Below, piece by piece: positions 31,432 through 51,382 of a DNA stretch of 64,000 nt; position 1 is the stretch's first letter, and every line of letters begins with the position of its first letter. Origin of the DNA: Methylocapsa sp. S129 (GTDB taxonomy: Bacteria; Pseudomonadota; Alphaproteobacteria; Rhizobiales; Beijerinckiaceae); NCBI RefSeq assembly GCF_009765995.1, contig NZ_LMUI01000059.1, positions 273,048 to 337,047 of the forward strand, read 5' to 3'. The notes beneath the pieces were generated by a model, which ran no database searches, was not told the origin of the DNA, and saw only the letters and a program-made list of their open reading frames with translations. The translations under genes were made by a program, and so were the position numbers.

Positions 31432-31460
31432 GTTATTTGATCATAACAAGTGTGATCACA
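31432..31460. promoter_or_regulatory. Paired TGATCA-centred palindromes, candidate GntR operators
   Basis: Two inverted repeats lie side by side: GTTAT-TTGATC-ATAAC (31432-31447) and TGTGATCACA (31451-31460). They sit between the divergent GntR and LIV ATPase genes. Similar TGATCA-centred sites occur before the second GntR gene at 43.6-43.8 kb. Confidence 0.5.
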
Positions 31461-31507
31461 AAATGTAAGCTGAAAAATTGAGCGAGTCGCCAAAAGCGGA
31501 AGAGGCC

Positions 31508-33896: not shown

Positions 33897-34840
33897 TCGG
33901 CTTTGCGAGCTATGCCTTCTTCTTTCTGACGACTGCGCTTTCCTACGCGATCATCTGCCTCGGTCTGAACCTCCAATGGGGGCAGACGGGGCTGTTCAAC
34001 GTCGGCGTCGCGGGCTTCGTCGGCATCGGCGCGTACGCATCAGCGTTGTTGACGACCCCCGCGACGGACGCGCACCTCATGGGATGGGGATTGCCGATCG
34101 CTGCCGGCTGGCTCGGTGCGATGCTCGTATCGGGGACCGCCTCGGCCTTGATCGGCTTCGCGACCCTACGGCTGCGATCCGACTATCTGGCGATCACAAC
34201 CTTCGGCGTTGCGGTGACGATCCATCTCATCGCTCTCAACGCCCAGAGGCTGACCGGCGGTCCCTATGGCATCGCCTTTATTCCGAGGCCCTTCAATGAA
34301 GTCGCGGATCGACCGCTGCTGTTCAACGGCCTCAATCTCGCGTTAGTCGCGGCTTTGACGTTCGTGCTCTACATCGCCAGCGAACGGCTCGTGCGGTCTC
34401 CCTGGGGGCGTGTGCTGCGTGCGATTCGCGAGGACGAACGCGCAGCCGCCTCGCTTGGCAAGAGTCCGAGCCTCTATCGCCTGCAAGCCTTCGCGCTGGG
34501 CGGCGCGGTCATGGGGCTCGGGGGCGCCCTGCAAGCGCATTTCATCGGTTTCATCGCGCCCGACAATTACCTCTCGAGCCTGACGTTTCTGGTCTGGACG
34601 ATGCTGATCATCGGCGGCTCCGGCAACAATCGTGGCGCCATCCTCGGCGGCGTCCTTGTCTGGGCGCTGTGGAGCGCGTCGGGCGTCGCGATAGGCGCGA
34701 TTGTTCCCGCCGAGCAACAGGCCCGTGCGGCGGCCTTGAAGATCGTTGCAGTCGGAGTCTTCCTGGCGCTGGCGTTGCTGTTGCGCCCGCGTGGGTTGAT
34801 TGGAGAGCGGACGGTGGTTTCGCGGCATTTGGATGAATGA
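33893..34840 (+). CDS. LIV-type ABC transporter permease (LivM-like)
   Basis: Second permease, about 315 residues. 'LGLNLQWGQTGLFNVGVAGF' and 'RAIREDERAAASLGKSPSLY' are typical LivM blocks. The open frame extends far back to 33155 inside the LivH-like gene, but that part is out-of-frame shadow; ATG 33893 gives the correct N-terminus and an ATGA overlap. The AKR-RidA fusion gene follows after 138 bp. Confidence 0.9.
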   Translation: MIGFASYAFFFLTTALSYAIICLGLNLQWGQTGLFNVGVAGFVGIGAYASALLTTPATDAHLMGWGLPIAAGWLGAMLVSGTASALIGFATLRLRSDYLAITTFGVAVTIHLIALNAQRLTGGPYGIAFIPRPFNEVADRPLLFNGLNLALVAALTFVLYIASERLVRSPWGRVLRAIREDERAAASLGKSPSLYRLQAFALGGAVMGLGGALQAHFIGFIAPDNYLSSLTFLVWTMLIIGGSGNNRGAILGGVLVWALWSASGVAIGAIVPAEQQARAAALKIVAVGVFLALALLLRPRGLIGERTVVSRHLDE

Positions 34841-34978: not shown

Positions 34979-36487
34979 ATGACCCACCCTTTGCGCTCCC
35001 TGCTCGCTCCCGATTTCGAAATCAGCAGCATCGTCACCGGACTCTGGCAGGTCGCAGACCAGGAGCGCGCAAACGGTCCGCTCGATCCAGAGTCGGCGTC
35101 TTCCACTCTGCTGGACTATGCGCGCGCGGGTTTCGACAGCTTCGACATGGCTGATCACTACGGCAGCGCGGAGATCATCGCCGGACGGTTCCTGCAACGC
35201 GTCGCCTCGGGCGAGCCGGCCGGCGGCGCGCGTCCCGCAGTGTTCACCAAATGGTGCCCCGTCCCGGGATCCATGACGCGCGAGATCGTCCGCGAGGGCG
35301 TTGACCGCGCGAGGAAAAGACTGGGCGTCGAGACGATCGACCTGATGCAATTTCATTGGTGGAGCTTCGATCACCCGGGCTATCTCGACGCGATGAAAGA
35401 ACTCGAGGCGCTTCGGCGGGAAGGCCTCATCCGCCATATCGGCGTCACCAATTTCGACACTGCGCATTTGCGCGTGTTGGTGAAGCATGGGATTCCGGTG
35501 GTCTCCAACCAGATTTCGTTTTCGCTGCTCGATCGTCGCGCCGCCGGCGAGATGAGTGCGTTCTGTTTGGAGCATGGCGTTCGCCTGCTCGCCTACGGAA
35601 CTCTCGCGGGTGGGCTCATCTCCGAGCGTTGGCTCGGCCAGCCCGAACCGGCTCCAAGCGCCATCGCCGATTGGAGTAAGTCAAAATACAAGCGCTTCGT
35701 CGATGCGATCGGTGGTTGGTCCGCGCTTCAGGGTATCCTCGAAGCGCTAGCGAAAATCGCTTTCAAGAACGACGTTTCGCTCGCCAATATCGCCACGCGC
35801 TGGACTCTTGATCACCCTGCCGTCGCCGCGGTCGTTGTCGGGGCGCGGCTGGGCGAGCGCGATCACAGCGCGGACAATGCGAGGGCTTTCGCGTTCACCC
35901 TGGATGCGCGAGACAAGGACGCGATCGCAGCCGCATTGGCCACGACGAGGCCACTTCACGGCGATTGCGGCGACGAATACCGCCGTCCGCCCTTTCTCAC
36001 GGCTTCGGGCGATCTCAGCCATCATCTCGAAACTTTGCCGAAGGTGTACAAAGCCGAACGCGTCGAGGGGCGCGCGGACCGATGGCGCGTCGACTCGGGC
36101 AGCGTTTGGGAGCCCATTGCTGGCTACAGCCGGGCCGTGCGGGTCGGCGAGCGGATATTGGTGAGCGGCACCACGGCGACGAATGGATCGGGAGAAGTTG
36201 TTTGTCCCGGCGACGCCGCCGGACAGACCGTGTTCATTCTCGACAAGATCGCCGCCAGCCTGGCGGCATTGGGCGGTAAGTTGGAGGACGTGATTCGCAC
36301 GCGCGTCTACCTCAAGGATGCCGATCAGTGGGAGCCTGTCTCGCGCGCCCACGGTCGATATTTTGGTCATATTCGCCCGGCCAATACATTGCTCGAAATT
36401 TCCCGGCTCGTCGGTGACTACGAAGTCGAGATAGAGGCGGAAGCCGTTGTCGCGCCGGGACGCCCCATCGAGAACGACCCGCTTTGA
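34979..36487 (+). CDS. Aldo/keto reductase-RidA fusion protein
   Basis: A 502-residue two-domain protein. Residues 1 to about 330 are an aldo/keto reductase with Asp/Tyr in 'FDSFDMADHYGS', Lys in 'AVFTKWCPVPG' and His in 'LMQFHWWSF'. Residues about 355-500 are a RidA/YjgF domain: 'YSRAVRVGERILVSGTTATN', 'LAALGGKLEDVIRTRVYLKD' and 'VGDYEVEIEAEAV'. The RidA active-site Arg (usually in PARS) is replaced: the loop reads 'RPANTLLEIS', so archetypal imine deamination is doubtful. ATG 34979 is chosen over the longer frame from 34847. It ends the LIV operon and may remove an imine or enamine and reduce the carbonyl formed. Confidence 0.85.
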   Translation: MTHPLRSLLAPDFEISSIVTGLWQVADQERANGPLDPESASSTLLDYARAGFDSFDMADHYGSAEIIAGRFLQRVASGEPAGGARPAVFTKWCPVPGSMTREIVREGVDRARKRLGVETIDLMQFHWWSFDHPGYLDAMKELEALRREGLIRHIGVTNFDTAHLRVLVKHGIPVVSNQISFSLLDRRAAGEMSAFCLEHGVRLLAYGTLAGGLISERWLGQPEPAPSAIADWSKSKYKRFVDAIGGWSALQGILEALAKIAFKNDVSLANIATRWTLDHPAVAAVVVGARLGERDHSADNARAFAFTLDARDKDAIAAALATTRPLHGDCGDEYRRPPFLTASGDLSHHLETLPKVYKAERVEGRADRWRVDSGSVWEPIAGYSRAVRVGERILVSGTTATNGSGEVVCPGDAAGQTVFILDKIAASLAALGGKLEDVIRTRVYLKDADQWEPVSRAHGRYFGHIRPANTLLEISRLVGDYEVEIEAEAVVAPGRPIENDPL

Positions 36488-36741: not shown

Positions 36742-37020
36742 CTAATCCGCCGCCGCCAAACGCTCGGCGATCACTCGGTCGGTGATCGCAAGAAGAAGCT
36801 GCTTTGACATTTCGGGATCGAGTCCGCTCTCGGCGCAATGGCGAAGGAACCGATCGCGCTGGCTTTGAACCCTGGAGGGATCGACGGGCGGTTGCGCCGC
36901 GCTTTTCTTGATGACGCCGATCCGCCTCGAATGCTCGAAACGCCGCCTCAAAAGCTCAATGAGTTGATCGTCGATCTGATCAATCGCCTGCTGCAGCGCC
37001 AGAACTTCGTTCACTATCAT
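36742..37020 (-). CDS. AroQ-fold chorismate mutase-like protein
   Basis: A 92-residue all-helical protein of the AroQ/chorismate mutase type II family. It keeps 'IDQIDDQLIELLRRRFEHSR', the Lys in 'IGVIKKSA' and the Arg in 'VDPSRVQSQR'. The first catalytic Arg is replaced: 'LALQQAID' stands where 'LRxxID' is usual. It is the last gene of a seven-gene leftward catabolic operon with no aromatic biosynthesis genes nearby, so a role on a pathway intermediate (mutase, lyase or isomerase) is more likely than Phe/Tyr synthesis. The family is clear; the function is inferred. Confidence 0.75.
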   Translation of the reverse strand: MIVNEVLALQQAIDQIDDQLIELLRRRFEHSRRIGVIKKSAAQPPVDPSRVQSQRDRFLRHCAESGLDPEMSKQLLLAITDRVIAERLAAAD

Positions 37021-37070
37021 AGTGCTTCCTCGCGTCCGATCGCACTTTGCTGGCGCTGATAGGTTCGGGA

Positions 37071-38258
37071 TCACCCGACGCCGATGATGTTCCAGCCGCG
37101 TCCGTTGTCGGCGAAGGCTTCGCTGCCATCCGCTGTCACTGCGAGCGTATCCTCCATCTTGATGAAACCTCGCGTCGGGTGGCGGATCGATGTTTCCACG
37201 GACAGCAGCATCCCGACTTCCAGGGGCCGCTCCGCGTCGTCGGCGGGATAGGGCAACGGGCGGCCGCTTGCAAGACGCGGGGCCTCGTGCAGCACAAGTC
37301 CCATGCCGTGGACAGTGAAATCCATTGCCGAACGATGCGGCGAGGATTCGACCGCGGCGTCGCCGGCGGCGATGAGGCTGCCGCCCGCGACCCCGGCGCG
37401 TATTGCGTGGCGTGCGGCCTGTTGGATGATGTCGACCTCCTCCAGCAGATCGATGAGCTCCGCGTCGGGTTCGCCGGCGACGCCCATGCGGCAAAGATCG
37501 CCGGCATAGCCTTTAAAAGTGCCGCCGGCGTCAAGCGAGACGATCTCTCCCTCTTTCAATATCTGGTCGGATGGGACCCTGTTGAAGCTCGACCCGATAG
37601 CTATCTGACAGAAGGCGAAGTCCACGCCGCGAGCGAATTGCTCTGCGCGGACCTGCTCGACGAACTGATGCCCGTTCATGCCGGGACGCGCGGATGCGAA
37701 GGCCGCCAGAACTCCGCCTTCGACGCCCTCGGCGACCTTTTTCAGCAGAGCCAGTTCCTCTGGCGTCTTCATCGCGCGCAGCAGTTCGAGGACTCGCAGC
37801 GCGTCGACGATTTCAGCGCTCGGAAAAGCCGACGTCAGCGCGTCCTTCGAATCCGCGGGCATGAAGCCTGCCTCGACGCCAATACGGTGAGCCGGCAAAC
37901 CTGACGTTTTGATATGGTCGATCGCGGTCGCCATCGCATCGGTGGAACCCCAAGATCCAGCGACGCAATGCGGTGTCCAGAAGGCGCCGATGCTCCAGGC
38001 GTGTTTTTCCATCACGGAACCGACGTAGAGCGCCGCGTCAGGTCGTCCTTTGAAATAGACGACGATCGGCAAATAACGGCTTACCCCAATCGCCGTGATC
38101 GTCTCGAAGAAAAAGAAACGATAGCCGCCCAGCAGATATTGAACGTTGTGCGGGGATGTGGCGAGGATCACATCGATCCCCCTGTCGTCCATCAGCGCGT
38201 CAAGACGCGCGGCGTCAAACGGGACGAGCATGCCGGTCTTCTCGGGATGATCAATCAC
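37071..38258 (-). CDS. M24-family metallohydrolase (Xaa-Pro peptidase/creatinase type)
   Basis: A 395-residue protein with an N-terminal creatinase-like domain and a C-terminal pita-bread domain. All five metal ligands are present: Asp in 'IVSLDAGGT', Asp in 'GYAGDLCRM', His in 'GLVLHEAPRL', Glu in 'LSVETSIRH' and Glu in 'IKMEDTLAV'. It should cleave an Xaa-Pro-like or amidino/amide bond in the cytosol. In this operon it lies between an alpha/beta hydrolase and an AroQ-fold protein, so a pathway-specific amide hydrolysis is plausible. Confidence 0.85.
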   Translation of the reverse strand: MIDHPEKTGMLVPFDAARLDALMDDRGIDVILATSPHNVQYLLGGYRFFFFETITAIGVSRYLPIVVYFKGRPDAALYVGSVMEKHAWSIGAFWTPHCVAGSWGSTDAMATAIDHIKTSGLPAHRIGVEAGFMPADSKDALTSAFPSAEIVDALRVLELLRAMKTPEELALLKKVAEGVEGGVLAAFASARPGMNGHQFVEQVRAEQFARGVDFAFCQIAIGSSFNRVPSDQILKEGEIVSLDAGGTFKGYAGDLCRMGVAGEPDAELIDLLEEVDIIQQAARHAIRAGVAGGSLIAAGDAAVESSPHRSAMDFTVHGMGLVLHEAPRLASGRPLPYPADDAERPLEVGMLLSVETSIRHPTRGFIKMEDTLAVTADGSEAFADNGRGWNIIGVG

Positions 38259-38272
38259 GGGATGTGCCTCCT

Positions 38273-39061
38273 TTATTGAGGTTGATCGAGAAGAAAGCGC
38301 TTCAGTATTTCAGCAACTCGGTCGGGCGCCTGGATGACGCCGACATGGCCGACGCCGTCGAGCAGAGCGAATTGCGTCCGCGGGACGCCTTCGGCGAGCG
38401 CGGCGGTTGCGTCGTGAGGTATGACGCGATCCTCGCTGCCTGATAGCAGCAGCACCGGACGCGGGAACGTCGAGATATCGGCGCTCATTGTTTGTGAAGC
38501 CAAGGCGGCCCGGCGCCCGCGCTTCTGAGGACTACGGCTATTGGAACGGAACATGCCGACGATCGACGGGTTGTCGCGGACGAAGTCCGGCGTAAAGAAC
38601 AATTCGGCAATGTTCTGCGCGTTCGCGTCGAGATCGCCGCGCAACTGCACGAGGCGCGCGACGCCCTCGGGGTTAACCTCCTGCACACTCAGTCCCGCGC
38701 GCCACGTATTGCCCAACACCAGCCGGTCGACGCGGTCAGGAAAGCGCGCGGCGAAGAATTGCGCGACAAGGCCGCCAAAAGAGCTGCCGTAGATATGCGC
38801 CCGGGAAACTCCGAGCGCTGCGACAAGCGCGGCCGCATCATCGGCGAGATCCGCGAGCGTGCAGGGTTCTTCGGGATTTATCGTCGCGCCGCAGTCGCGC
38901 TGATCGTACGCGACGATCGTGAAATCGCCCTCGAGACGTTCGGACAACGCGTCGAACATCGAGTGATCGGCCTCTTGCCCGTGCATGAGGACCAGCGGCG
39001 GCCCTTTGCCACGTCGCGTAAACGCGATCGTGACGCCATTGACTTCAATCGTGTCCACCAT
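38273..39061 (-). CDS. Alpha/beta hydrolase
   Basis: A 262-residue serine hydrolase. The nucleophile elbow 'YGSSFGG' lies near residue 95, the acid in 'SGSEDRVIPHD', and the His in 'DGVGHVGVIQ'. The oxyanion region is 'VLMHGQEADHS'. The frame reads on upstream into the hydroxylase gene; ATG 39061, eight bases after the hydroxylase stop, gives a standard N-terminus. It may hydrolyse an ester, lactone or ring-cleavage product made downstream of the hydroxylase. Confidence 0.87.
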   Translation of the reverse strand: MVDTIEVNGVTIAFTRRGKGPPLVLMHGQEADHSMFDALSERLEGDFTIVAYDQRDCGATINPEEPCTLADLADDAAALVAALGVSRAHIYGSSFGGLVAQFFAARFPDRVDRLVLGNTWRAGLSVQEVNPEGVARLVQLRGDLDANAQNIAELFFTPDFVRDNPSIVGMFRSNSRSPQKRGRRAALASQTMSADISTFPRPVLLLSGSEDRVIPHDATAALAEGVPRTQFALLDGVGHVGVIQAPDRVAEILKRFLLDQPQ

Positions 39062-39068
39062 CGACGCC

Positions 39069-40676
39069 TCAATTAAGCAAGGTTGATAGGGCGCCGGCGA
39101 GTTCCTTGGCGGGATCCGACGGCATCCACGGCATGCGCCAGGCGACATGGCCGTCCGGGCGCACCAACGCGACGCCGCGTTGCCCCATGCGAACGCCATC
39201 GCGATGGTCGGCGCGCGGCAGGGCGCGCAGTCCGAGCGGGACGCCTGTTTTCGCCGAGACGTCGCGCCCCGCCTCCAGCCATCCGGAACCGAGGGGGCCG
39301 GCGACGACGACAAATTCGGTGTCGAACCAATCGAGAGTCGTGCGCTTGCGGCTCGGATCCAGCCACAGATGCGGAAAGCGCGATCCGGCGCGATCGTTGG
39401 GGGTGTAGACGCGGGGGTTGTAGGGGGGCGGAACGGTCCCGTCGCGGATCACGGCGCCCTCCTCGTAGATGACGCCCAGACTCTGGCCCATGCTGTGGGT
39501 GTGATTGTCCATATCGTCGGTCCAGAACTGGATGCGATCTTGGTTGTTCGATCGCACCGCCTCTTCGAGCGCGTTGAAACGTTCGAGATTGCCGAGACTG
39601 AAATTGGCGTTGGATTGGGCGACGGGCTTGCGCTCCGCTGTGTAGGTGTCGAGAAGCCGGTCTGTCGCGAAACCCTTCACCACGAAAGCGAGCTTCCACG
39701 CGAGATTGTGCGCGTCCTGGATGCCCGAATTCATGCCATATCCGCCATTGGGAGGAAAGCGGTGCGCCGCGTCGCCGGCGATGAAGATGCGCCCTTTACG
39801 AAAAGTCGCCGCGACCTGCTTGCTCACGCGCCAGATCGAACGATTGATCATCTCGACGCCGAGATTGGGGAGTCCCACATAGCGGCGCGTCATCGCTACG
39901 AACTCGGCCTCCGTCCACGGCCGCTCGCGCTCGTCTTTGACGTCGCCGATCTTCATGACCGACAACCAACGGTCGCGGCCGTTCGTGTTGAGGATGGTGA
40001 GCCGCGGCTCATTCCTGTCCTCGGGAAACAGCAGCCAACCCGCGCAATCGCTGGAATGGCGGATGCTGGAGAGATCGCCCTTCCAATAGTCGTTTGACAT
40101 CACCGCGAGCGTCGGAGGGCCGCCCATCTCGATGCCCGAGGCGCGCCGCACGCCGCTTCCCGCGCCATCGGCGGCGACGACGTAGGTCGAGCGCCACAAA
40201 GTCTCTTCACCGGATTCCACCGACCGGGTTCGGACGGCGACGCCGGCGCCATCTTCCTCAACGGAGACGACCTCCGTGCTAAAGCGAACGCGGACATGGC
40301 GAGCGTTCTTCAGTTTCTTGAAAAGCTCCTCTTCAACCGCGTCTTGCGCGACGATGCTCTTCCAGGACGGCGTCTGATCGAGGTTGGGCTCGGGTCGCGA
40401 GCGGCCGTATTCCGTTCCCGCAATGCTCGAGGCGACCGAGAAGACATCGGCGTCGCTCGGCAGGCCGCGGTCGCGGATTGCGTCCTCGACCCCCCATTGA
40501 CGGAACAGCTCCATCGTGCGCGCCATGCAACCGCGCGCCTTGGGGTGCTCTGTCGTCGCGGGGCTGCGTTCGGCGACGACACAATCGACGCCGAAGCGAT
40601 CGAGCAGCAGCGCCGTCGAGAGGCCGACCGGGCCGCCGCCGACGATCATCACAGACGTGCGTTCGTTGTTTTTCAT
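39069..40676 (-). CDS. FAD-dependent monooxygenase (aromatic hydroxylase family)
   Basis: A 535-residue flavoprotein hydroxylase of the PheA/TfdB/MhpA type. The FAD motifs are all present: 'IVGGGPVGLSTALLLDRFGV' at residues 11-30, the 'AADGAGSGVRR' DG motif, and 'GRIFIAGDAAHRFPPNGGYG' near residue 290. The C-terminal thioredoxin-like domain is typical for the class. ATG 40676 is chosen over the longer frame to 40805. It probably hydroxylates an aromatic intermediate using NAD(P)H and O2. Confidence 0.88.
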   Translation of the reverse strand: MKNNERTSVMIVGGGPVGLSTALLLDRFGVDCVVAERSPATTEHPKARGCMARTMELFRQWGVEDAIRDRGLPSDADVFSVASSIAGTEYGRSRPEPNLDQTPSWKSIVAQDAVEEELFKKLKNARHVRVRFSTEVVSVEEDGAGVAVRTRSVESGEETLWRSTYVVAADGAGSGVRRASGIEMGGPPTLAVMSNDYWKGDLSSIRHSSDCAGWLLFPEDRNEPRLTILNTNGRDRWLSVMKIGDVKDERERPWTEAEFVAMTRRYVGLPNLGVEMINRSIWRVSKQVAATFRKGRIFIAGDAAHRFPPNGGYGMNSGIQDAHNLAWKLAFVVKGFATDRLLDTYTAERKPVAQSNANFSLGNLERFNALEEAVRSNNQDRIQFWTDDMDNHTHSMGQSLGVIYEEGAVIRDGTVPPPYNPRVYTPNDRAGSRFPHLWLDPSRKRTTLDWFDTEFVVVAGPLGSGWLEAGRDVSAKTGVPLGLRALPRADHRDGVRMGQRGVALVRPDGHVAWRMPWMPSDPAKELAGALSTLLN

Positions 40677-40704
40677 GAGACCTGTTCCGTTGATGAGCGC
40701 AGCT

Positions 40705-41808
40705 CTAAAGCTTGAAAGTCTTGGCCTGCTGGATGATCGCGGCCTTGTCGAAGGCGTTGACCTCCTCGATGAGATCGTTGGTGAAGAGCTTATGCGGATC
40801 GCCAATCTTGGCCGCGAATTGCGGATCGCCCACGGTCTCCGCGGTCATCGCGATCAGCGCATTCCACGCCTCGACATCGGTCGCGCCCATGCGCGGGTCG
40901 GGATTGTCGGGGCTCGGCATCCAGTGATCGATCCGCTTGCTCAGCAAAAACAGCATGTCTGCCTTCGCCTCGGCTTCCGATTTCGATTTTGGCTTGCTTT
41001 CGGGATATTGCTCCCAGTGCATGGAAATGCAGGGTTCTGGGTTTGTGTGCGCGAAGATCGTCGACTTTGCCATCGCGCGCAGAAAGCCGACCATCTGGCG
41101 GCGATGCTCGGCTAGGAAGCTCTTGTTGAAGCCGAGAAATCCGGAGGGCGTCGCCGCGAATTTTGGCGTCAGCGGGAGATAGCGTAGCTTAAAGCCGGCG
41201 ATTTCGACTCGCGCCGCCGAAGTATCGTAGGTCACGATCACGTCGACGCCATCCTTGTAGAGCGCCGCGCCCGCGCCTCCTCCCTCGCCGATCGCGATGT
41301 AATCCGCGCCGCCGTCGTCGAGACCCAATTCGCTCCACATGGTCTTGGCGACGTATCTGCCGATGTCGCCCTGATTGCGCACGCCGATCCGTTTACCGCG
41401 TAGATCGGCGATCGATTGATAGGGCGCATCGGGCTTCACCGCGACGACCGCGACATTTCGCGGTAGCCAGCAATAGGTCGAGATCACCGGGAATGAGGGG
41501 TCTTTGGCGACGACGGGGAGGTAAATGCCGGAGGCCAGCGTCGCCACCGTCGTCTCGCCGGTCGCGACCGATTGCATGCCTTGCGAGGGGTTAGCGACGC
41601 CGACAAATTCAATGTCGACGCCCTCGGCCTGATAATAGCCGAGGCGAGGATGGCGCCCGGCCGTCGCGAAGATTTGCTGCGGGTCGTTGACGCCTGCGGC
41701 GTTGCCGATGCGAAACATCATCGGAGCGTCCGCGCGCGCGCGCCGCGGCGCGGCGGCCGACATCGTCAGTGCGAGCGCCGACAGGCCGAATTCTCTGCGA
41801 TTGATCAT
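40705..41808 (-). CDS. NMT1/SsuA-type ABC transporter substrate-binding protein
   Basis: Periplasmic binding protein of 367 residues with a Tat-like signal ('NRREFGLSALALTMSAA', then 'RRARADA'). The fold is that of the NMT1/TauA/SsuA group: 'YYQAEGVDIEFVGVANPSQG', 'DLRGKRIGVRNQGDI' and 'YKDGVDVIVTYDTSAARVEI'. It lies between its permease gene (upstream) and the FAD hydroxylase gene (downstream), so the imported compound is probably the hydroxylase substrate or its precursor. Confidence 0.88.
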   Translation of the reverse strand: MINRREFGLSALALTMSAAAPRRARADAPMMFRIGNAAGVNDPQQIFATAGRHPRLGYYQAEGVDIEFVGVANPSQGMQSVATGETTVATLASGIYLPVVAKDPSFPVISTYCWLPRNVAVVAVKPDAPYQSIADLRGKRIGVRNQGDIGRYVAKTMWSELGLDDGGADYIAIGEGGGAGAALYKDGVDVIVTYDTSAARVEIAGFKLRYLPLTPKFAATPSGFLGFNKSFLAEHRRQMVGFLRAMAKSTIFAHTNPEPCISMHWEQYPESKPKSKSEAEAKADMLFLLSKRIDHWMPSPDNPDPRMGATDVEAWNALIAMTAETVGDPQFAAKIGDPHKLFTNDLIEEVNAFDKAAIIQQAKTFKL

Positions 41809-41842
41809 ATCACCCTCCTTCAGCGCTCGAACAGATGGGCGT

Positions 41843-42712
41843 TCACAGGTTGATGCTCCGGCGCGCTTGATCCTTCGGCAGCCAGTAGAGGACCCGCGCC
41901 TCGACGACCCGTATGACGGCGCTCAACCCGACGCCGATCAGCGACAGGATGATGAACACCGCGAAGCTGCCGCCGACATCCATCGCGCTGTCCAATTGCA
42001 AGATCAGCACGCCCAGTCCGGACTGCGCGCCGATGAATTCGCCGACGATGGCCCCGACCACGGCGAAAGCGGCGGCCATTTCCAGGCCGGCGAAAATGAA
42101 GGGCAGCGCGGTCCAGAATTTGACCTTCGTGAAAATGTGCCAGCGGCTCGCCGAAAGCGATCGCAGCAGGTCGATCCGCTCCGGCTCGACCGCCTTGAAG
42201 CCGGCGAGGCAGGTGATCAACACGGGAAAGAAGGTGAGCAGCGCGATAATGGCCACTTTCGAGGCCAGACCAAAGCCCAACCAAAGCACGATGATCGGTG
42301 CGACGGCGACCTTGGGCAGGCTTTGAAACGCGACGACATAGGGCCGCAGCACCGCCTCCAGCTTGTCCGTTTGCGAGATCGCGACGCCGAGCGCCAGGCC
42401 GAGCCCGCAGCCGACGAAGTAGCCGAGCACCGTCTCCGAAATAGTCACGAAGCTATGGAGCCAGAACCCGTCGCGCGCCAACGGACTGACCGCAAATCCA
42501 TTCCAGAGCGCCACGACGATGTCGCTCACCGAAGGAATGAGCCAACTCGGCACGTGGAAGAGACGAACGCTCCCCTCCCAAACCGCGATCAGGAGGACGA
42601 GCAGGATCAGAGAATAGACTTTCGCCGGAATCGATCGCCGGCGCCTGCGTTTCGTCGCTATCGCCTGACCCGTGCGCGGGGCGGAAGCGTCGAGCGTCGC
42701 TATCTCGGCCAT
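41843..42712 (-). CDS. ABC transporter permease (SsuC/TauC type)
   Basis: An inner-membrane permease of about 289 residues with six hydrophobic helices. The EAA-loop region is 'LLRSLSASRWHIFTKVKFWT', and 'AAAFAVVGAIVGEFIGAQSG' is characteristic of the nitrate/sulfonate/taurine group. The frame opens at 42796, but ATG 42712 gives the usual N-terminal tail. It follows its ATPase by 25 bp. Confidence 0.9.
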   Translation of the reverse strand: MAEIATLDASAPRTGQAIATKRRRRRSIPAKVYSLILLVLLIAVWEGSVRLFHVPSWLIPSVSDIVVALWNGFAVSPLARDGFWLHSFVTISETVLGYFVGCGLGLALGVAISQTDKLEAVLRPYVVAFQSLPKVAVAPIIVLWLGFGLASKVAIIALLTFFPVLITCLAGFKAVEPERIDLLRSLSASRWHIFTKVKFWTALPFIFAGLEMAAAFAVVGAIVGEFIGAQSGLGVLILQLDSAMDVGGSFAVFIILSLIGVGLSAVIRVVEARVLYWLPKDQARRSINL

Positions 42713-42737
42713 ATTTCGCTCCGTGGAATCGTCGGGG

Positions 42738-43568
42738 TCAGTCAAACGATCCCGCATGGTTGAAGAACGCCCGGATTTCTTGCGCCCTCTCGCCAAATTC
42801 TGGCGTCGCCGTCAGCGCCATCGTGCGGGGTCTGGGTAGATCGATGGGCACGACGCGCCGCAGCGCTCCCGGCCTGGCCGTCATCACGAGAACGACGTCG
42901 CCGAGAAAGACCGCCTCGGGAATCGAATGCGTGATGAGGACGATGGTCTTGCGACTCTCGGTCCAGATGCGTTGCAGTTCGAGGTTCATCTGTTCGCGCG
43001 TCATCGCGTCGAGCGCCCCGAAGGGCTCATCCATGAGCAGGATTCTCGGATCGTGCAGCAACGCGCGCGCGATCGACGCGCGCTGTTGCATGCCGCCGGA
43101 CAATTGGCTCGGCAGCCGGTTCTCGAAACCCTCCAGGCGAACCATCGCCAACAGTGCCCGGGCGCGAACGCGCGCGGCGTTCATGTCGAGGCCGAGCACC
43201 TCGGCGGGCAACAGGACGTTGTCGAGGATCGTGCGCCACGGCAGCAGAACGGGGTTCTGGAACACGACGCCGATGTCTCGGCGAGTCCCCTGCACTGGCG
43301 CGCCGTCGAGGGTGACCGACCCGTCGGAATAATCGAGCAGGCCGGCGAGGATTCGCAGCAGCGTGCTCTTGCCGCATCCGCTCGGCCCGACAATCGACAC
43401 GAAATCGCCCTCCTGGATCGAGCAACTGACGTCGTCCAATGCGAGGAGTTCGTTAGGGGTTCCGTCGCCGAAGACTTTGCGCAGATGGTCGATGCGGATC
43501 AGATCGCGTGGGCTGGGAGAGGGTCCAGGCTGACGACTGTCGTCGCCGTCGGGCGGGCGGCTCGGCAT
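42738..43568 (-). CDS. ABC transporter ATPase (SsuB/TauB type)
   Basis: ATPase of about 276 residues with Walker A 'GPSGCGKSTLLRILAG', signature 'LSGGMQQRASIARALL' and Walker B 'ILLMDEPFGALDAMT', then 'VLITHSIPEAVFLGDVVLVM'. It is first in the leftward seven-gene operon. ATGs at 43568 and 43604 and the frame start at 43619 are all possible; none has a strong Shine-Dalgarno. A TGATCA palindrome lies just upstream. Confidence 0.9.
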   Translation of the reverse strand: MPSRPPDGDDSRQPGPSPSPRDLIRIDHLRKVFGDGTPNELLALDDVSCSIQEGDFVSIVGPSGCGKSTLLRILAGLLDYSDGSVTLDGAPVQGTRRDIGVVFQNPVLLPWRTILDNVLLPAEVLGLDMNAARVRARALLAMVRLEGFENRLPSQLSGGMQQRASIARALLHDPRILLMDEPFGALDAMTREQMNLELQRIWTESRKTIVLITHSIPEAVFLGDVVLVMTARPGALRRVVPIDLPRPRTMALTATPEFGERAQEIRAFFNHAGSFD

Positions 43569-43625
43569 CCTGTCGGAGTATGGAACAGAGGGGGTCAATA
43601 TCATCCCGCCGCACGCCATTTAATT

Positions 43626-43637
43626 CGTGATCACAAG
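43626..43637. promoter_or_regulatory. TGATCA-centred palindrome, candidate GntR operator
   Basis: CGTGATCACAAG, symmetric around TGATCA, lies in the divergent region between the ATPase and GntR genes, close to the ATPase start. It resembles TGTGATCACAAA at 31451-31462. Confidence 0.45.
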
Positions 43638-43750
43638 TTTTGCTCAGCACCGCAATTCTGTCAACAGAATTCTTGAAGAGACCTCATTTTAGAGTATTGT
43701 CGTGATGAATTGCCACGAATTTGTACACCGGCGAGCGGCTTATAGATATT

Positions 43751-43760
43751 TGTGATCAAA
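43751..43760. promoter_or_regulatory. Second TGATCA-centred site before the GntR gene
   Basis: TGTGATCAAA (within TTTGTGATCAAAG, near-symmetric) is 64 bp before the chosen GntR start. Together with 43626-43637 it brackets the divergent promoters, the layout expected for an autoregulated GntR. Confidence 0.45.
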
Positions 43761-43823
43761 GATATCGCTCTGGCGCGCCTAGCCCAAATCGGCGAGGATC
43801 AGTGCGAGCGATCGAGGAGCAAA

Positions 43824-44681
43824 ATGCGGCAAAGTTCAGATAGGCGACGGGGGGCCCTTTCCGAGCCTAATGTCGAAGCGCCGGAGGAATTGGCCTCAGG
43901 CGGCCGCGAACACGGCCCCTTTACCTCGCTGGCGCAGAAGACCTACGAAGCCCTGCGAGCCGCGCTTCTGAACGGAGAATTCCGGGCGGGCCAGACAATC
44001 AGCCTGCGCAGCGCCGCCGAGGCGTTGGGCGTCGGCCAGATGCCGGTTCGGCACGCCTTGAGCCGGCTGCAGGCGGAAGGCATTTTCGTGATGCAGCCGA
44101 ACCGGTCGCTGGCGGTTCCCACCGCCACGCGCACGTCGATCATCGAAATTCGCGACGTGCGCATCGCGTTGGAGGGTCTGGCGGCCGAACAGGCGGCGCA
44201 GCGCGCGACGCAGCGCGAGATCGACGAACTCGCAGGCCATTTCGAAGTCATGAAGCAAGTCGTCCAAAGCTCGGACATCAAGCGATATATCGCTGTCAAT
44301 CTCAAATTCCACATGACGCTCTATCGGGCTGGCCGCTCCGCTACGCTATTCCAGTTGATTGAATCCATCTGGGTGAAATCCAGCGCGAATAGCCGCCTGG
44401 TTGCGGTCGAAGAAGCGGTCGGAACCCTTCCCAATCATGCCCGTGCGTTGGAAGGCGTGCGGAGCCGCGATCCAATCATGGCGCGCGCGGCCATCGTGCA
44501 GGATTGTTGCGCCACTTATGAGATCCAGTTGGCGCTGCTGGCGGCGAGTGACGCGGAAGCCAGCAATGGCTCGCCGAGCAACGTCGCCCATCTCGTACGT
44601 AAACGCACCCTTCCCGCCGGCGCGCTGGGCAGCCTCGTCGGCTCCAAGCGCAGAGGCCGCCCGCCCAAGGCGCAAACCTAA
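43824..44681 (+). CDS. GntR-family (FCD) transcriptional regulator
   Basis: About 285 residues. The HTH reads 'YEALRAALLNGEFRAGQTIS' then 'LRSAAEALGVGQMPVRHALS', followed by an FCD domain ('DVRIALEGLAAEQAAQRATQ'). A basic tail 'SKRRGRPPKAQT' resembles an AT-hook-like element (GRP core), unusual for the family. ATG 43824 has GAGGAG four bases upstream; the frame from 43752 would overlap the candidate operator. It is upstream of the GGT-like gene and divergent from the seven-gene operon. Confidence 0.88.
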   Translation: MRQSSDRRRGALSEPNVEAPEELASGGREHGPFTSLAQKTYEALRAALLNGEFRAGQTISLRSAAEALGVGQMPVRHALSRLQAEGIFVMQPNRSLAVPTATRTSIIEIRDVRIALEGLAAEQAAQRATQREIDELAGHFEVMKQVVQSSDIKRYIAVNLKFHMTLYRAGRSATLFQLIESIWVKSSANSRLVAVEEAVGTLPNHARALEGVRSRDPIMARAAIVQDCCATYEIQLALLAASDAEASNGSPSNVAHLVRKRTLPAGALGSLVGSKRRGRPPKAQT

Positions 44682-44706
44682 GGCCCTTCAGAAAAGAGGA
44701 ATCCCG

Positions 44707-46506
44707 ATGAGCACGGCGAAGCCTGCTTCCTTCACGACTCGCCCCGAGATCGAGGGCACGTTCGGGGTCGTCGCCTCGACGCACTGGATCGCCACGGCGG
44801 TAGGCATGGGCGTGCTCGAGAGAGGCGGCAACGCGTTCGACGCCGGGGTCGCCGCCGCATTCACGCTGCAAGTCGTCGAACCGCACCTGAACGGTCCGGG
44901 CGGCGACGTTCCGATTATTGTCCACGATGTTTCGCGCGGACGCACGGAGGTGATCTGCGGCCAGGGGCCGGCGCCTGCGGGGGCCACGATCGCGCATTAT
45001 CGGCGCGAGGGTCTCGATATGATCCCGGGGACGGGCCTGCTAGCCGCCTGCGTGCCGGGCACGTTCGAAACTTGGATGCTGCTGTTGCGCGACTACGGCT
45101 CGATGTCTCTGCGCCAAGTGCTGGAGCCGGCGATCGGCTACGCCAGAAACGGCCACCCTCTCGTCGAACGCGCGAGCGCGACGATCAGAACCGTCGAAAC
45201 CTTGTTTCGCCAACATTGGACGACGTCGGCCGAAATCTATCTGCCGGGCGGCGAGGTCCCGGCGCCCGGCTCCCTCTTCACTAACGCCAAGCTCGCCGAC
45301 GCCTATGGGCGCATCCTGATCGAAGCCGAGAGCGGCGGCGGGGATCGCGTCGCGCAGATCGAGCGCGCCCGCAAGGCATGGTCGCAAGGCTTCGTCGCCG
45401 AGGCGATCGATCGATTCTGCCGAACCCAAGCTGTCATGGATGTCAGCGGCTCGCCGCATCGGGGCGTGTTGACAGGCGAGGACATGGCGCGCTGGCGGCC
45501 GACGATCGAAGCGCCGCTGACCTACGATTACGGCCGATTCACGGTGTGCAAGGCCGGCGCCTGGAGCCAAGGGCCCGTTATGCTGCAGCAACTGGCGTTG
45601 CTTAAGGGCTTCGAACTCGATGGGCTCGATCCTGCCGGCCCCGAGTTCGTGCATCTGCAAGTCGAATGCGCCAAGCTCGCTTATGCCGATCGCGAGAAGT
45701 TTTACGGCGATCCCGACTTCATTGAGGTTCCGATCGAGGTGTTGCTTACCGATCGCTACAACGACGAGCGGCGCAAACTGATAACGCGCGAAGCATCGCT
45801 GGAGTTTCGCCCCGGCTCTGTCGAGGGCTTCGGCGCGCGCGTCGAGATGCGCGGAACCGGTTTGCAGAGCGGCGCGGGAGGGATGGGCGCGGGCGAGCCG
45901 ACGGTGGGGCGGCTCGGCGAGGTGCGCGGCGACACGGTGCATTTCGACATCATCGATCAAGCCGGCAATATGATTTCTGCGACGCCGTCGGGCGGCTGGC
46001 TGCAGTCTTCGCCGGTGATCCCTGAACTGGGCTTTTGTCTGGGCAGCCGCGCACAGATGTTTTGGCTCGAGGAGAACCACCCGGCAGCTCTGGCGCCCGG
46101 CAAGCGTCCACGCACGACGCTGAGCCCGACCATGGCGCTACGCGACGGCGAGCCCTATCTGGCCTGGGGAACGCCGGGCGGCGACCAGCAGGATCAATGG
46201 ATCACGCAGTTCTTCCTGCGTCACGTCCACGCGGGCATGAATCTCCAGGAAGCGATCGACGCGCCGGCCTGGCACTCCGAGCATTTCCCGATCTCGTTCT
46301 GGCCGCGCACCGCGCGGCCCGGCGTGCTGGTCGCCGAAAATCAATTGCCGAAAACGACCGTCGAGGCGCTGCGGGCCCGCGGCCATATCGTGGAGATCGG
46401 TCCCGATTGGTCGGAGGGCCGGCTGACCGCCGCGTCCAAGGTGGGAGCCCGCCGCCGCGCCGCCGCCAATCCCCGCGGAATGCAAGGCTACGCGATAGGA
46501 CGATAG
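44707..46506 (+). CDS. Gamma-glutamyltransferase-family Ntn hydrolase
   Basis: A 599-residue protein of the GGT/cephalosporin acylase family, made as a precursor that self-cleaves. 'GVLERGGNAFDAGVAAAFTL' and 'PHLNGPGGDVPIIVH' are large-subunit hallmarks. The likely cleavage site and nucleophile Thr is in 'RGDTVHFDIIDQAGN' near residue 411. No signal peptide is visible, so it is probably cytoplasmic, unlike classical GGT. AAGAGGA precedes ATG 44707. It follows the GntR by 25 bp and may deacylate or deglutamylate the compound handled by the divergent operon. Confidence 0.87.
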   Translation: MSTAKPASFTTRPEIEGTFGVVASTHWIATAVGMGVLERGGNAFDAGVAAAFTLQVVEPHLNGPGGDVPIIVHDVSRGRTEVICGQGPAPAGATIAHYRREGLDMIPGTGLLAACVPGTFETWMLLLRDYGSMSLRQVLEPAIGYARNGHPLVERASATIRTVETLFRQHWTTSAEIYLPGGEVPAPGSLFTNAKLADAYGRILIEAESGGGDRVAQIERARKAWSQGFVAEAIDRFCRTQAVMDVSGSPHRGVLTGEDMARWRPTIEAPLTYDYGRFTVCKAGAWSQGPVMLQQLALLKGFELDGLDPAGPEFVHLQVECAKLAYADREKFYGDPDFIEVPIEVLLTDRYNDERRKLITREASLEFRPGSVEGFGARVEMRGTGLQSGAGGMGAGEPTVGRLGEVRGDTVHFDIIDQAGNMISATPSGGWLQSSPVIPELGFCLGSRAQMFWLEENHPAALAPGKRPRTTLSPTMALRDGEPYLAWGTPGGDQQDQWITQFFLRHVHAGMNLQEAIDAPAWHSEHFPISFWPRTARPGVLVAENQLPKTTVEALRARGHIVEIGPDWSEGRLTAASKVGARRRAAANPRGMQGYAIGR

Positions 46507-47137: not shown

Positions 47138-48169
47138 TTATGCTGACTCTCTCATGATTAGCCGCGCCTCGAGCAGGTCGGTCGAATTTTGATTTGTTCT
47201 GTCGGAAATGCCCTGCATCACGCGCTCCAGGCTTATTGTCGCCAACCGCTCGACGTCTTGTGCGACCGTCGTCAGTGATGGGCATGCGTATTGGCTCAAG
47301 GGGTGGTCATCGTGTCCCGCAATACGCAACTGCAAGCGACGGCCGACAGATATTCCTGACTGACAGGCCGCCGACATGACCCCGAAGGCGACGCGATCAT
47401 TGGCGCAGAGCACCGTCTCCCCCACGGGGGCGCCCGCCTTGAAAAGACGCGTCGCCTCTTCGAAAGCCAGGCGTTCGAAGTCCCAGTCGAGCGAGCGAAC
47501 GGAAAAGATGCGGGGTTCGACGCCGCGCTCCCGCATTGAGGTTACATAGGCCTCGCGTCGCTCACGTGCGTTTTGATTGACATCGGGCATATCGAAGTAA
47601 CTTGGCGGTGCGCCGGATCGCAGGAGATAATCGACCATGAGGCTCATGCTGAGGTAGTTGTTCGTCCCAACGAACGCGCCGTCGGCCTCCGCGCGCGCAT
47701 CGAGGAACACCAACGGCATGGCTGTCGCCATCTGGCGGTAGAGATCCTTGCGTGAAGCTTCTCCGAGGGGAACCACGATGGCTCCGGCGCTCTTGATCGA
47801 CATCAAAGTGGCGACCGCTTCTGCTTCCCGTTCGGGCTCGCCCTGGCTGCTTCGGATGACCGTCCAGTAGCCGGAGGACGAAGCCTGCAATTCGATTCGC
47901 TGCACGAGCGCAGCATAGAACGGGTCCATCAGAGTGGGGACTAGAATGCCAAGCGTTTTCGGATTGCGTCGGTTGAAGTTCACGGCGAGCAGATTCGGGC
48001 GATAGCCCAATCGCTCCATCGCCTCTTCGATCTTTTCGCGAGAGGCCGGCCGCACGCTGGTTGGATCATTGAAGAACCTCGACAAAGTCGGACGTGAGAT
48101 TCCGCTCGCGGCGGAAAATTCCTCCATCGTGCGAATGCGGCCTGAGATGTTGGACTCACCGTCGTGCAT
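47138..48169 (-). CDS. LacI-family transcriptional regulator
   Basis: A 343-residue sugar-responsive repressor. The LacI HTH with hinge is at residues 14-62: 'TMEEFSAASGISRPTLSRFF' and 'REKIEEAMERLGYRPNLLAV'. The periplasmic-binding-like effector domain follows ('LGILVPTLMDPFYAALVQRI'). It is divergent from the polyol-binding protein gene, with two TTACATATG-type sites between them. It likely represses the polyol cluster until the sugar or its derivative binds. Confidence 0.9.
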   Translation of the reverse strand: MHDGESNISGRIRTMEEFSAASGISRPTLSRFFNDPTSVRPASREKIEEAMERLGYRPNLLAVNFNRRNPKTLGILVPTLMDPFYAALVQRIELQASSSGYWTVIRSSQGEPEREAEAVATLMSIKSAGAIVVPLGEASRKDLYRQMATAMPLVFLDARAEADGAFVGTNNYLSMSLMVDYLLRSGAPPSYFDMPDVNQNARERREAYVTSMRERGVEPRIFSVRSLDWDFERLAFEEATRLFKAGAPVGETVLCANDRVAFGVMSAACQSGISVGRRLQLRIAGHDDHPLSQYACPSLTTVAQDVERLATISLERVMQGISDRTNQNSTDLLEARLIMRESA

Positions 48170-48189
48170 AAGTTTCTTTCTCTCACTAA

Positions 48190-48224
48190 TTTTTACATAT
48201 GTAAAAAATATTTGTTACATATGA
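48190..48224. promoter_or_regulatory. LacI-type operator pair
   Basis: TTTTTACATATGTAAAAA (48190-48207) is a perfect 18-bp palindrome; a second copy of the core, TTACATATGA, is at 48215-48224. They lie 21 bp upstream of the LacI gene start and 80-114 bp upstream of the binding-protein gene. AT-rich symmetric sites of this type suit LacI-family regulators of polyol genes. Confidence 0.65.
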
Positions 48225-48303
48225 TTGACGTGGTCGATACGTACTGCCATAGAGGTCACAAGGACTGGAGCGTCGTCAAGTCCGACAACGAGGAGTGAAC
48301 GTC

Positions 48304-49611
48304 ATGGTGGGATTGAAGACCTTTGCGGCTGGTTTAGCCTTGGCCTCGGGTGTTGTTACTGTTGCAAGCGCCGAGAATCTGACAATTGCTACGGTAAACA
48401 ACGAAGACATGATCATCATGCAGAGGCTTTCTTCCAAATGGGAGCAACAGACCGGCAATAAAATTAATTGGGTCATCCTGGAAGAAAACGTTCTTCGTCA
48501 GAAAGTGACCACCGACATTGCGACCAAGGGCGGCTCTTATGACATTATTACCATCGGCGCTTATGAAACGCCGATCTGGGGCAAGAAGGGCTGGCTGACC
48601 GAACTCGACGATTTCAAGGACTATGACTACGACGATCTGCTTGCGCCGGTGAAGGCGGGACTGTCGGTCGACGGGAAGCTCTATGCCGTCCCCTTCTATG
48701 CCGAAAGCTCCTTCACGATGTACCGCAAGGATCTGTTCCAAAATGCCGGCTTCACCATGCCGGAGCACCCGACTTACGACCAGATCAAACAATTCGCCGA
48801 CAAGCTGACCGACAAGGCGAACGGGACCTACGGCATCTGCCTGCGCGGCAAGGCCGGCTGGGGCGAGAATATGGCGTTTCTCGGCACCCTGGTGAACACC
48901 TATGGCGGCCGCTGGTTTGACATGGACTGGAAGCCCCAACTGAATTCCGAGGCCTGGAAGACGGCGATCAGCTTCTATATCGACTTGATGAAGGCTGACG
49001 GACCGCCCGGCGCCGTGGGGAACGGTTTCAATGAAAATCAAGCATTGTTCGCGGGCGGCAAATGCGCGATGTGGATCGACGCGACTTCCGCCGCCGGACG
49101 CGTCTCCAATCCCAAGGAAAGCCACGTCGCCGATAAGATCGGCTTCACTGCATCCCCGACCGCGGTGACGCCGAACGGATCGGCCTGGGCGTGGTCCTGG
49201 GCGTTGGCCATTCCAACCTCCTCGAAAAAGGAGGCGGCCGCCAAGGACTTCGTCCGTTGGGCGACGTCGAAGGATTACATCAAGCTGGTGGGCGAAACGG
49301 AGGGATGGGTCGCCGCGCCACCCGGCACGCGCAAGTCCACCTACGACAACCCGGAATATCAGAAAGCCGCGCCGTTTGCGTCCATCGTGGTGAACGCCAT
49401 CCTGGCCGCCGACCCGACCCACGCAACCAAGGATCCGGTTCCCTACACCGGCGTGCAGTTTGTCGCCATTCCCGAATTTCAGGGCATTGGCACGAGTGTG
49501 GGCCAGAGCATCGCCACCGCGCTGGTCGGCTCGGAAAGCGTCGCGGACGCGCTGCAGAAGTCGCAGGCTTCGACCACGGCGACGATGACGAAAGCTGGCT
49601 ACATCAAATAG
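48304..49611 (+). CDS. Polyol-type ABC transporter substrate-binding protein (SmoE-like)
   Basis: Family 1 extracellular binding protein of 435 residues. Signal peptide 'GLKTFAAGLALASGVVTVAS' leads a mature part with 'LTIATVNNEDMIIMQRLSSK', 'GGSYDIITIGAYETPIWGKK' and 'AVPFYAESSFTMYRKDLF', the pattern of sorbitol/mannitol-binding SmoE proteins. ATG 48304 has AGGAG eight bases upstream. Its usual partners SmoF, SmoG and SmoK are absent; enzymes follow directly instead. Confidence 0.87.
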   Translation: MVGLKTFAAGLALASGVVTVASAENLTIATVNNEDMIIMQRLSSKWEQQTGNKINWVILEENVLRQKVTTDIATKGGSYDIITIGAYETPIWGKKGWLTELDDFKDYDYDDLLAPVKAGLSVDGKLYAVPFYAESSFTMYRKDLFQNAGFTMPEHPTYDQIKQFADKLTDKANGTYGICLRGKAGWGENMAFLGTLVNTYGGRWFDMDWKPQLNSEAWKTAISFYIDLMKADGPPGAVGNGFNENQALFAGGKCAMWIDATSAAGRVSNPKESHVADKIGFTASPTAVTPNGSAWAWSWALAIPTSSKKEAAAKDFVRWATSKDYIKLVGETEGWVAAPPGTRKSTYDNPEYQKAAPFASIVVNAILAADPTHATKDPVPYTGVQFVAIPEFQGIGTSVGQSIATALVGSESVADALQKSQASTTATMTKAGYIK

Positions 49612-49782
49612 CGCCGGCGCGGGTCACGGTCGGCGACGACCGCGACCCGCTCTCAAATCCGAGTTCTCCGCAACCGCCTGGCAAAGTCAGCCGCCGCCGA
49701 ATGGATCGTGGCGTCAAGCATATCGGGGACCATGGCGACAAACAGACCCGGGGTCCAACCGAGAAAAACCGAGGTACGTTAG

Positions 49783-50568: not shown

Positions 50569-50608
50569 TTTGACTCGTGTTACCCTGGCCGAACAACAAG
50601 CAACCATC

Positions 50609-51379: not shown

Positions 51380-51382
51380 GCG

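Follow-up and report, generated by a model that had tools for sequence, protein, structure and literature searches.

A putative ring-compound catabolic operon of Methylocapsa sp. S129 encoding a FAD hydroxylase, an M24 metalloprotein and an LmbA-type member of the gamma-glutamyltransferase family

Two described clusters, the isoflavone cluster ifc of Variovorax and the naringenin cluster fde of Herbaspirillum, contain a flavin adenine dinucleotide (FAD) ring hydroxylase and an alpha/beta hydrolase; in ifc, according to the sections of PMC11069340 used here, the hydroxylase is accompanied by a glyoxalase-type protein and the alpha/beta hydrolase gene lies in the induced region. The same two enzymes are encoded in a nine-gene locus at positions 36742 to 46506 of a stretch of 64,000 nucleotides from Methylocapsa sp. 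S129 (assembly GCF_009765995.1, contig NZ_LMUI01000059.1, positions 273,048 to 337,047; hereafter the window), in which we propose, with belief and doubt evenly balanced, a catabolic operon for a ring compound that would work by hydroxylation, ring opening, C-C hydrolysis and an oxalate release of LmbA type. Compared with ifc and fde, the window has an M24-family metalloprotein, an NMT1-type ATP-binding cassette (ABC) transporter, a putative LmbA-type protein of the gamma-glutamyltransferase (GGT) family and a chorismate mutase-like (CM-like) protein, and there is no VOC or cupin protein among its nine. Relatives of the locus that we call VOC-type also carry a small glyoxalase-fold protein, which is the annotation of IfcB in the same sections of PMC11069340. 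The likeness is one of kind.

The GGT-family protein recalls the 4-alkyl-L-proline pathway of lincomycin and anthramycin, in which LmbA acts after catechol cleavage by the small VOC dioxygenase LmbB1 (available text of PMC5519988, PMC4780272 and PMC12311729). LmbA2991 has a large subunit of 420 residues and a small subunit of 197 residues with the N-terminus TCHLDVVDRW; it cleaves a C-C bond and releases oxalate in dependence on its N-terminal nucleophile (Ntn) threonine, and the substrate for this release is the L-DOPA 2,3-cleavage product (PMC5519988, available text). LmbA is a GGT homologue with the same pocket letters as the window protein. This pathway is biosynthetic, tyrosine-derived and located in Actinobacteria, and the gene set tabulated in PMC4780272 shows, in the part available, no FAD hydroxylase, alpha/beta hydrolase or M24 gene, unlike the window, which in turn lacks the VOC. 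Two of the other proteins also have described counterparts. The M24 metallohydrolases prolidase, ectoine hydrolase DoeA and dimethylsulfoniopropionate lyase DddP share Creatinase_N plus M24 domains and five metal ligands with the window protein, whereas the window type sits in ring-hydroxylase operons and scores far below the NCBIfam cut-offs. AroQ chorismate mutase and the isochorismate lyase PchB share the CM_2 fold and R28, K39 and R51 with the CM-like protein, which has V52 as in PchB, has lost R11 and E52 and lies in a catabolic operon.

The original prediction, made from the letters of the window, had described a leftward seven-gene operon with divergent GntR and GGT-family genes, and the nine genes, their order, strands and short spacings were all confirmed, with coordinates close to those given. 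Leftward from position 43568 run the genes of the ABC ATPase, the permease, the NMT1 binding protein, the FAD hydroxylase, the alpha/beta hydrolase, the M24 protein and the CM-like protein, separated by -20, 34, 28, 7, 14 and 50 bases, respectively; the divergent gap between the ATPase and GntR genes has 255 bases and that between the GntR and GGT genes has 25. The Pfam scores in bits were 123.6 (ABC_tran), 95.5 (BPD_transp_1), 85.5 (NMT1), 294.7 (FAD_binding_3), 42.8 (Rng_hyd_C), 86.6 (Abhydrolase_1), 103.2 (Peptidase_M24), 41 (Creatinase_N), 57.4 (CM_2, cut-off 27), 53 (GntR), 77.6 (FCD) and 388.5 (G_glu_transpept).

FAD_binding_3 and Rng_hyd_C were both above their cut-offs, which identifies a class A FAD aromatic hydroxylase, and the motifs GGGPVG, DG and GD were found by eye. 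Among the best 60 of 96 matches to solved chains, its nearest include 8fhj, RdmE, GrhO5 and 2-hydroxybiphenyl 3-monooxygenase. The alpha/beta hydrolase has the motifs GSSFGG, D and GH (by eye), and its nearest curated family is the PcaD enol-lactonase (129.7 bits, below the cut-off of 255.85). Homology indicated no ligand for the binding protein; an order-wide search found this protein in 15 of 297 genomes including its own, the others being 25-32% identical.

Related loci were collected with the FAD protein. Among named genomes, a pattern scan returned 27 loci, of which 11 were 52-62% identical. At E 1e-110 the protein occurred in 2 of 248 genomes of the window's family and 2 of 398 of its phylum (its own included each time), in 42 of 213 genomes of the genus of G171, a genome of the same order as the window, in 24 of 101 genomes in the genus of the Variovorax genome G1397, and in 3 of 200 genomes in the family of G1397, two of which were already known; at most 3 to 14 candidates were scored per genome, so misses are possible in these counts. 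From the genus of G171, 21 of 43 places were taken (20 plus the G171 locus), and from the Variovorax genus 19 of 31, with one more from the family search and three others already in the set. The comparison comprises 55 loci outside the window, 54 with the FAD gene and one (L065) without.

Two kinds of locus emerged. A VOC without M24 was found in 31 of the 54 FAD loci, M24 without VOC in 21, both in none and neither in two (L026, and L035 on a 3.1-kb contig). Since L160 duplicates L030, the distinct numbers are 30 VOC-type loci and 53 FAD loci. The FAD-hydrolase-M24 combination therefore recurs in 21 of the 55 loci and the FAD-VOC-hydrolase combination in 31 (30 distinct), and an alpha/beta hydrolase lies near the FAD gene in 53 of 54, the exception being L035. 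Homologues of the window's substrate-binding protein (46-52% identical, 18 of 55 loci), GGT (50-54%, 5 of 55) and CM-like protein (3 of 55: L033 with three copies, L036 and L176) were all found at VOC-type loci and at none of the 21 M24-type loci. The window, with the M24 gene of one type and the accessory genes of the other, thus combines both. Some of these matches are given by construction: the VOC search model was built on L027, L029, L032, L033 and L036, and the window and L033 supplied the CM model.

The order FAD, alpha/beta hydrolase, M24 is kept in G380, G171 and 19 of the 20 newly taken loci of the G171 genus; where genes of M24-type loci were itemised, an MFS-type gene stands between them and all but L056 also have a divergent LysR-type gene (names by eye). 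In L176 the genes run FAD-VOC-hydrolase-CM; by a crude gene caller, 11 bases separate one pair of neighbours and the other two pairs overlap by 8 and 4 bases. The window ATPase is 68-72% identical to those of L024, L028, L032 and L065. The original prediction had put itself at risk on co-conservation of its genes; subsets recur although the whole set does not, and the conservation half of that test was passed. It knew of no characterised pathway with this exact set, and the result listings of searches limited to open-licence PMC papers likewise contained none. A separate arrangement was seen on a plasmid of Rhodococcus sp. JS3073 (L025, 10182-13605), where a sugar-type ABC transporter (by eye) is followed by two FAD hydroxylases in tandem, each sharing 46-47% identity with that of the window.

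The GGT-family protein was compared with solved chains, of which 6j3a (674.6 bits, 57% identity) and 6j3i (672 bits) stand far above all others (at most 182 bits). The printed sequence of 6j3a has 617 residues, reads GDTCHLDVVDRW at the nucleophile and has TCHLDVVDRW after GD; from this N-terminus and the sum of 420 and 197 residues, rather than from an entry title, we identify it as probable LmbA2991. A paper search for the codes 6j3a and 6j3i found none. The window protein retains the equivalents of E. coli T391 (the Ntn nucleophile) and of the oxyanion glycines G483 and G484. In the alignment, E. coli R114, N411, Q430 and D433, which we take to be gamma-glutamyl pocket residues, are replaced by Q, G, R and M, and T409, S462 and S463 by S, T and T. 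The letters at R114, T409, N411, Q430 and D433 are identical to those of 6j3a, read from printed sequence pieces, in all nine distinct LmbA-type rows (window, 6j3a, L028, L032, L158, L171, Phyllobacterium, Methylobacterium and Haematobacter); a fifth GGT of a FAD operon, L164, is outside this table. The TIGR00066 model for GGT scored 265.6 bits, below its cut-off of 357.85. The earlier view that all hydrolase motifs are intact was right for the M24 ligands, the Ntn threonine, the oxyanion glycines and the alpha/beta hydrolase motifs, and wrong for the gamma-glutamyl pocket. With four pocket residues replaced and the probable C-C-cleaving LmbA2991 as closest solved relative, the gamma-glutamyl substrate fails and was rejected, and the comparison suggests an LmbA-type protein with C-C cleavage and oxalate release as its proposed activity. 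At all five beta-type loci with a GGT gene a small VOC is encoded alongside, so that both lie in one cluster as LmbA and LmbB1 do; none of the nine window proteins is such a small VOC extradiol dioxygenase. Three further GGT-family genes are present in the window's genome.

The metal ligands of the M24 protein (D243, D254, H317, E355 and E369) are invariant in all 25 aligned M24 proteins, of which four come from other contexts and from which L113, truncated at a contig end, is excluded, and its 12 matching NCBIfam models were all far below cut-off (best 62.8 versus 393 bits). Most VOC-type relatives encode the small VOC protein between the FAD and hydrolase genes, and all 33 aligned rows, in which one locus is counted twice, share its H, H and E. 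A structure model of the VOC protein from five loci (predicted local distance difference test, pLDDT, 83.2) resembles L-DOPA dioxygenase 6on1 (rank 31, E 2.1e-6) among many single-domain VOC folds; a single-sequence AlphaFold model of the M24 protein had a mean pLDDT of 38.9 and was not used. With the VOC alignment, VOC relatives were found in 20 of 22 M24-type genomes searched, mostly at other loci. One relative, in G1374, belongs to L117, a separate VOC-type FAD locus of that genome, and the four inspected (two in G171, one each in G1328 and G1271) do not adjoin this FAD gene. Many of these relatives score above the VOC of L117, so genomes of the G171 genus could draw a VOC step from another locus. 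In the other direction, no M24 of this subfamily was found at E 1e-40 in eight genomes (seven VOC-type and that of L026), a search that had no positive-control genome; the same query found its targets in a separate search.

On the FAD tree the M24 and VOC traits each change twice. This leaves one independent comparison if supported branches are used and two if every branch is (sign test, p 1), so the mutual exclusion by itself carries no statistical weight. The approximately unbiased test did not reject a tree in which all M24-type FAD proteins form one clade (p 0.088), and the best tree puts the window outside that clade. The M24 tree unites the window with the principal clade of FAD-operon M24 proteins (96/92), which fits a single origin of the M24-type unit; another FAD-operon M24 clade (L111, L112 and L114-L116) is set off by a weak branch. 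No distinct FAD locus out of 53 holds both genes, so the M24 protein might replace the VOC, but only one or two independent switches speak for this. The bolder form, a non-orthologous replacement of the ring-cleavage dioxygenase in which the pita-bread fold opens the aromatic ring or stands in for the enzyme that does so, we consider improbable: it agrees with the split of the 53 distinct FAD loci (30 with VOC, 21 with M24, two with neither), with the presence in the window of M24 together with a transporter, GGT and CM-like gene otherwise seen only with VOC, and with the lack of a VOC of this subfamily at E 1e-10 in the window's genome and G380, and it is weakened by the one or two independent switches, by the VOC relatives of the other 20 M24-type genomes and by the missing positive control of the M24 search in the eight genomes. 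A parallel is NicX, where an M29-like fold opens a ring.

Several M24 and VOC relatives were observed in other surroundings. The window's genome has a 54% identical M24 paralogue (G000:C38:135680-136825, L063), and no homologue of the FAD hydroxylase lies less than about 10 kb from it. Window-like M24 proteins lie on 126 plasmid records, mostly of Sinorhizobium and Rhizobium (51-53% identical in the 25 rows shown); a Phyllobacterium M24 gene (L066 and L067 group) follows Tm-1-like, phosphoenolpyruvate-hydrolase-family and cupin genes, and in L064 a cupin-like gene (by eye) is just upstream of the M24 gene. VOC relatives in the G171 genus recur beside a 3-hydroxyisobutyrate-dehydrogenase-like gene (L188, L190 and L191; by eye).

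From the computed gene content, conservation, active-site residues and palindromes we infer the following steps, their order, the substrate and the regulation. The NMT1-type transporter would import a ring compound, the FAD hydroxylase would add a hydroxyl group, and the ring would then be opened. In the VOC-type relatives the small VOC with its conserved H, H and E probably opens the ring, and in the window the M24 protein, found instead of the VOC, probably takes either that intermediate or the one after it. The alpha/beta hydrolase would hydrolyse the ring-opened product, the GGT-family protein would attack its alpha-keto-acid end as an LmbA-type Ntn hydrolase and release oxalate, and the CM-like protein perhaps acts on a dicarboxylate intermediate other than chorismate. 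The tight operon spacing, the recurrent FAD and hydrolase loci with M24 or VOC and the likeness of the GGT to 6j3a support this proposal. Several points weigh against it. No VOC or other known ring-cleavage family was found by Pfam among the nine window proteins, and neither the window's genome nor G380 has a VOC of this subfamily at E 1e-10, which leaves the ring-opening step of the window unassigned; the structural matches of the VOC are unspecific. The GGT arm is divergent and outside the seven-gene run, its changes at T409, S462 and S463 are conservative ones, and the role of LmbA2991 in its own host is left unclear in the available text of PMC5519988. GGTs with the same pocket stand inside dipeptide-type ABC operons of Phyllobacterium and Haematobacter (L068 and L070), which means that this pocket is not confined to enzymes of ring products, and the window GGT is closer to these (59-60% identical) and to that of Methylobacterium (72%) than to GGTs of FAD operons (50-54%). 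As a separate matter, the GGT-family genes of L068 and L070, with their replaced pocket, are probably misnamed.

A less probable but credible alternative is that the FAD enzyme is itself the ring opener, acting on a (hetero)aromatic ring in the manner of 2-methyl-3-hydroxypyridine-5-carboxylate oxygenase, that the hydrolase cuts the resulting enamide or lactone, and that VOC or M24 trims the product downstream. FAD, hydrolase, transporter and M24 genes do occur together in L101, L106, L111, L112, L115, L118, L056 and L057, eight M24-type loci in which no ring-cleavage dioxygenase was recognised by eye, and alpha-(N-acetylaminomethylene)succinate hydrolase 3kxp is a match of the alpha/beta hydrolase (E 3.4e-13), although esterases and an enol-lactonase match it better. 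On the other hand, the best solved FAD matches are larger hydroxylases (RdmE and 2-hydroxybiphenyl 3-monooxygenase), the best 60 of 96 do not include the pyridine oxygenase, and a VOC with a complete H/H/E site is encoded in 30 of the 53 distinct FAD loci. It appears quite unlikely that the locus is a mosaic in which FAD-hydrolase-M24 alone forms a true unit and the genes for the ABC transporter, the CM-like protein, GntR and GGT lie beside it by chance: same-type GGTs do stand in other transporter operons, the CM-like gene is rare and the accessory genes are missing from M24-type loci, but homologues of the binding protein, GGT and CM-like protein recur near the same FAD and hydrolase genes (in the exceptional L065 a homologue lies beside VOC and hydrolase alone), and gene spacing is tight. 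The M24 and GGT superfamilies contain many amide hydrolases, and the substrate first suggested, an N-acyl or gamma-glutamyl aromatic degraded by M24 and GGT as two amide-type hydrolases, is likewise quite unlikely despite a probable M20-type peptidase gene (by eye) upstream of FAD in L026, as the four GGT pocket residues carry the letters of the C-C-cleaving homologue, M24 membership does not prove amide hydrolysis, VOC-type FAD/hydrolase loci lack M24, and M24 and GGT occur together at none of the 55 compared loci.

The original prediction had also called the AroQ-fold protein pericyclic-type. Compared with E. coli chorismate mutase, R28, K39, D48 and R51 are retained, R11 is Q and E52 is V, so the catalytic set, which we take to be R11, R28, K39, D48, R51, E52 and Q88, is incomplete; position 88 reads R, where the alignment is unsure. 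An ordinary chorismate mutase was rejected on the loss of R11 and E52, which makes the normal role unlikely. V at position 52 is also found in PchB and in a copy on contig C26 of the genome, and E in E. coli PheA and TyrA, 3rmi and the genome's C34 copy. The CM-like proteins of L033 (three) and L036 retain R11 and have R, V, Q and Q at position 52, and that of L176 has Q (by eye); an abnormal H at position 88 of the beta proteins was dropped as the alignment is unsure there. The protein is under the cut-off of all 15 matching NCBIfam models and had no plasmid match at 1e-6. It looks like an altered AroQ protein, and its action on another dicarboxylate is a guess. In Variovorax sp. OV329 (L033, 6666-14113) three CM-like genes surround two FAD hydroxylase genes, and the last stands directly before an acyl-CoA-synthetase-like gene (by eye).

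The divergent gap carries two palindromes (Table 1), both with TTGTGATCA, which suggests candidate GntR operators; together with the co-conserved subsets they support the operon-like catabolic cluster with divergent GntR, which probably controls both arms from them. The 9-mer TTGTGATCA has three copies in the window versus 0.37 expected, a number reached in 2 of 100 shuffles, and the 12-mer TTGTGATCACAA with at most two mismatches has four sites, one of them intragenic, versus 1.12 expected. As the motif was picked after inspection of the sequence, this enrichment suggests operators and does not prove them. A sigma-70 scan found no promoter (1.8 in shuffles) and a terminator scan found five, below the 8.9 of shuffles.

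Table 1. Genes and candidate operators of the locus, in window coordinates.
Feature	Position	Strand	Basis or remark
CM-like (AroQ-fold) protein, 92 aa	36742..37020	-	Pfam CM_2; alignment with E. coli PheA/TyrA
M24-family metalloprotein, 395 aa	37071..38258	-	Pfam; full D/D/H/E/E metal site
Alpha/beta hydrolase, 262 aa	38273..39061	-	Pfam; nearest curated family PcaD enol-lactonase
Class A FAD aromatic-ring hydroxylase, 535 aa	39069..40676	-	Pfam FAD_binding_3 + Rng_hyd_C
NMT1/SsuA-type substrate-binding protein	40705..41808	-	Pfam NMT1; twin-arginine-like start MINRREF by eye
ABC permease, TauC/SsuC-like	41843..42757	-	alternative start 42712 possible
ABC ATPase, TauB-like	42738..43568	-	alternative start 43619 possible
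Candidate GntR operator 1, palindrome AATTCGTGATCACAAGTT	43622..43639	none
Candidate GntR operator 2, palindrome GATATTTGTGATCAAAGATATC	43745..43766	none	overlaps alternative GntR GTG start 43752
GntR/FCD regulator, 285 aa	43824..44681	+	upstream start 43752 possible
Putative LmbA-type GGT-family Ntn hydrolase, 599 aa	44707..46506	+	gamma-glutamyl pocket replaced; no signal peptide by eye

The third copy of TTGTGATCA (31453-31461) is flanked on one side by another GntR/FCD gene (30629-31402) and on the other by a branched-chain-type ABC operon (31478-34840), so the divergent gap of that operon carries the same motif. Downstream of the operon is an aldo-keto reductase-RidA (Ribonuc_L-PSP) fusion (34979-36487). 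On the other side the locus adjoins an ordinary sugar-alcohol cluster (47138-52336) with a LacI-type regulator, a binding-protein-like gene (by eye), a tagatose kinase and two SDR genes, one matching L-iditol 2-dehydrogenase.

In conclusion, the comparison outlines a recurrent ring-catabolic module of FAD hydroxylase, alpha/beta hydrolase and M24 or VOC, to which the literature searches linked no assigned pathway, and poses the question of what the M24 protein does where its relatives carry a VOC enzyme. It also places a putative LmbA-type GGT beside ring-hydroxylase genes, outside antibiotic biosynthesis. Eight proteobacterial proteins of the 'gamma-glutamyltransferase' name, the window's and seven compared with it, are without the gamma-glutamyl pocket and are candidates for a C-C hydrolase assay.

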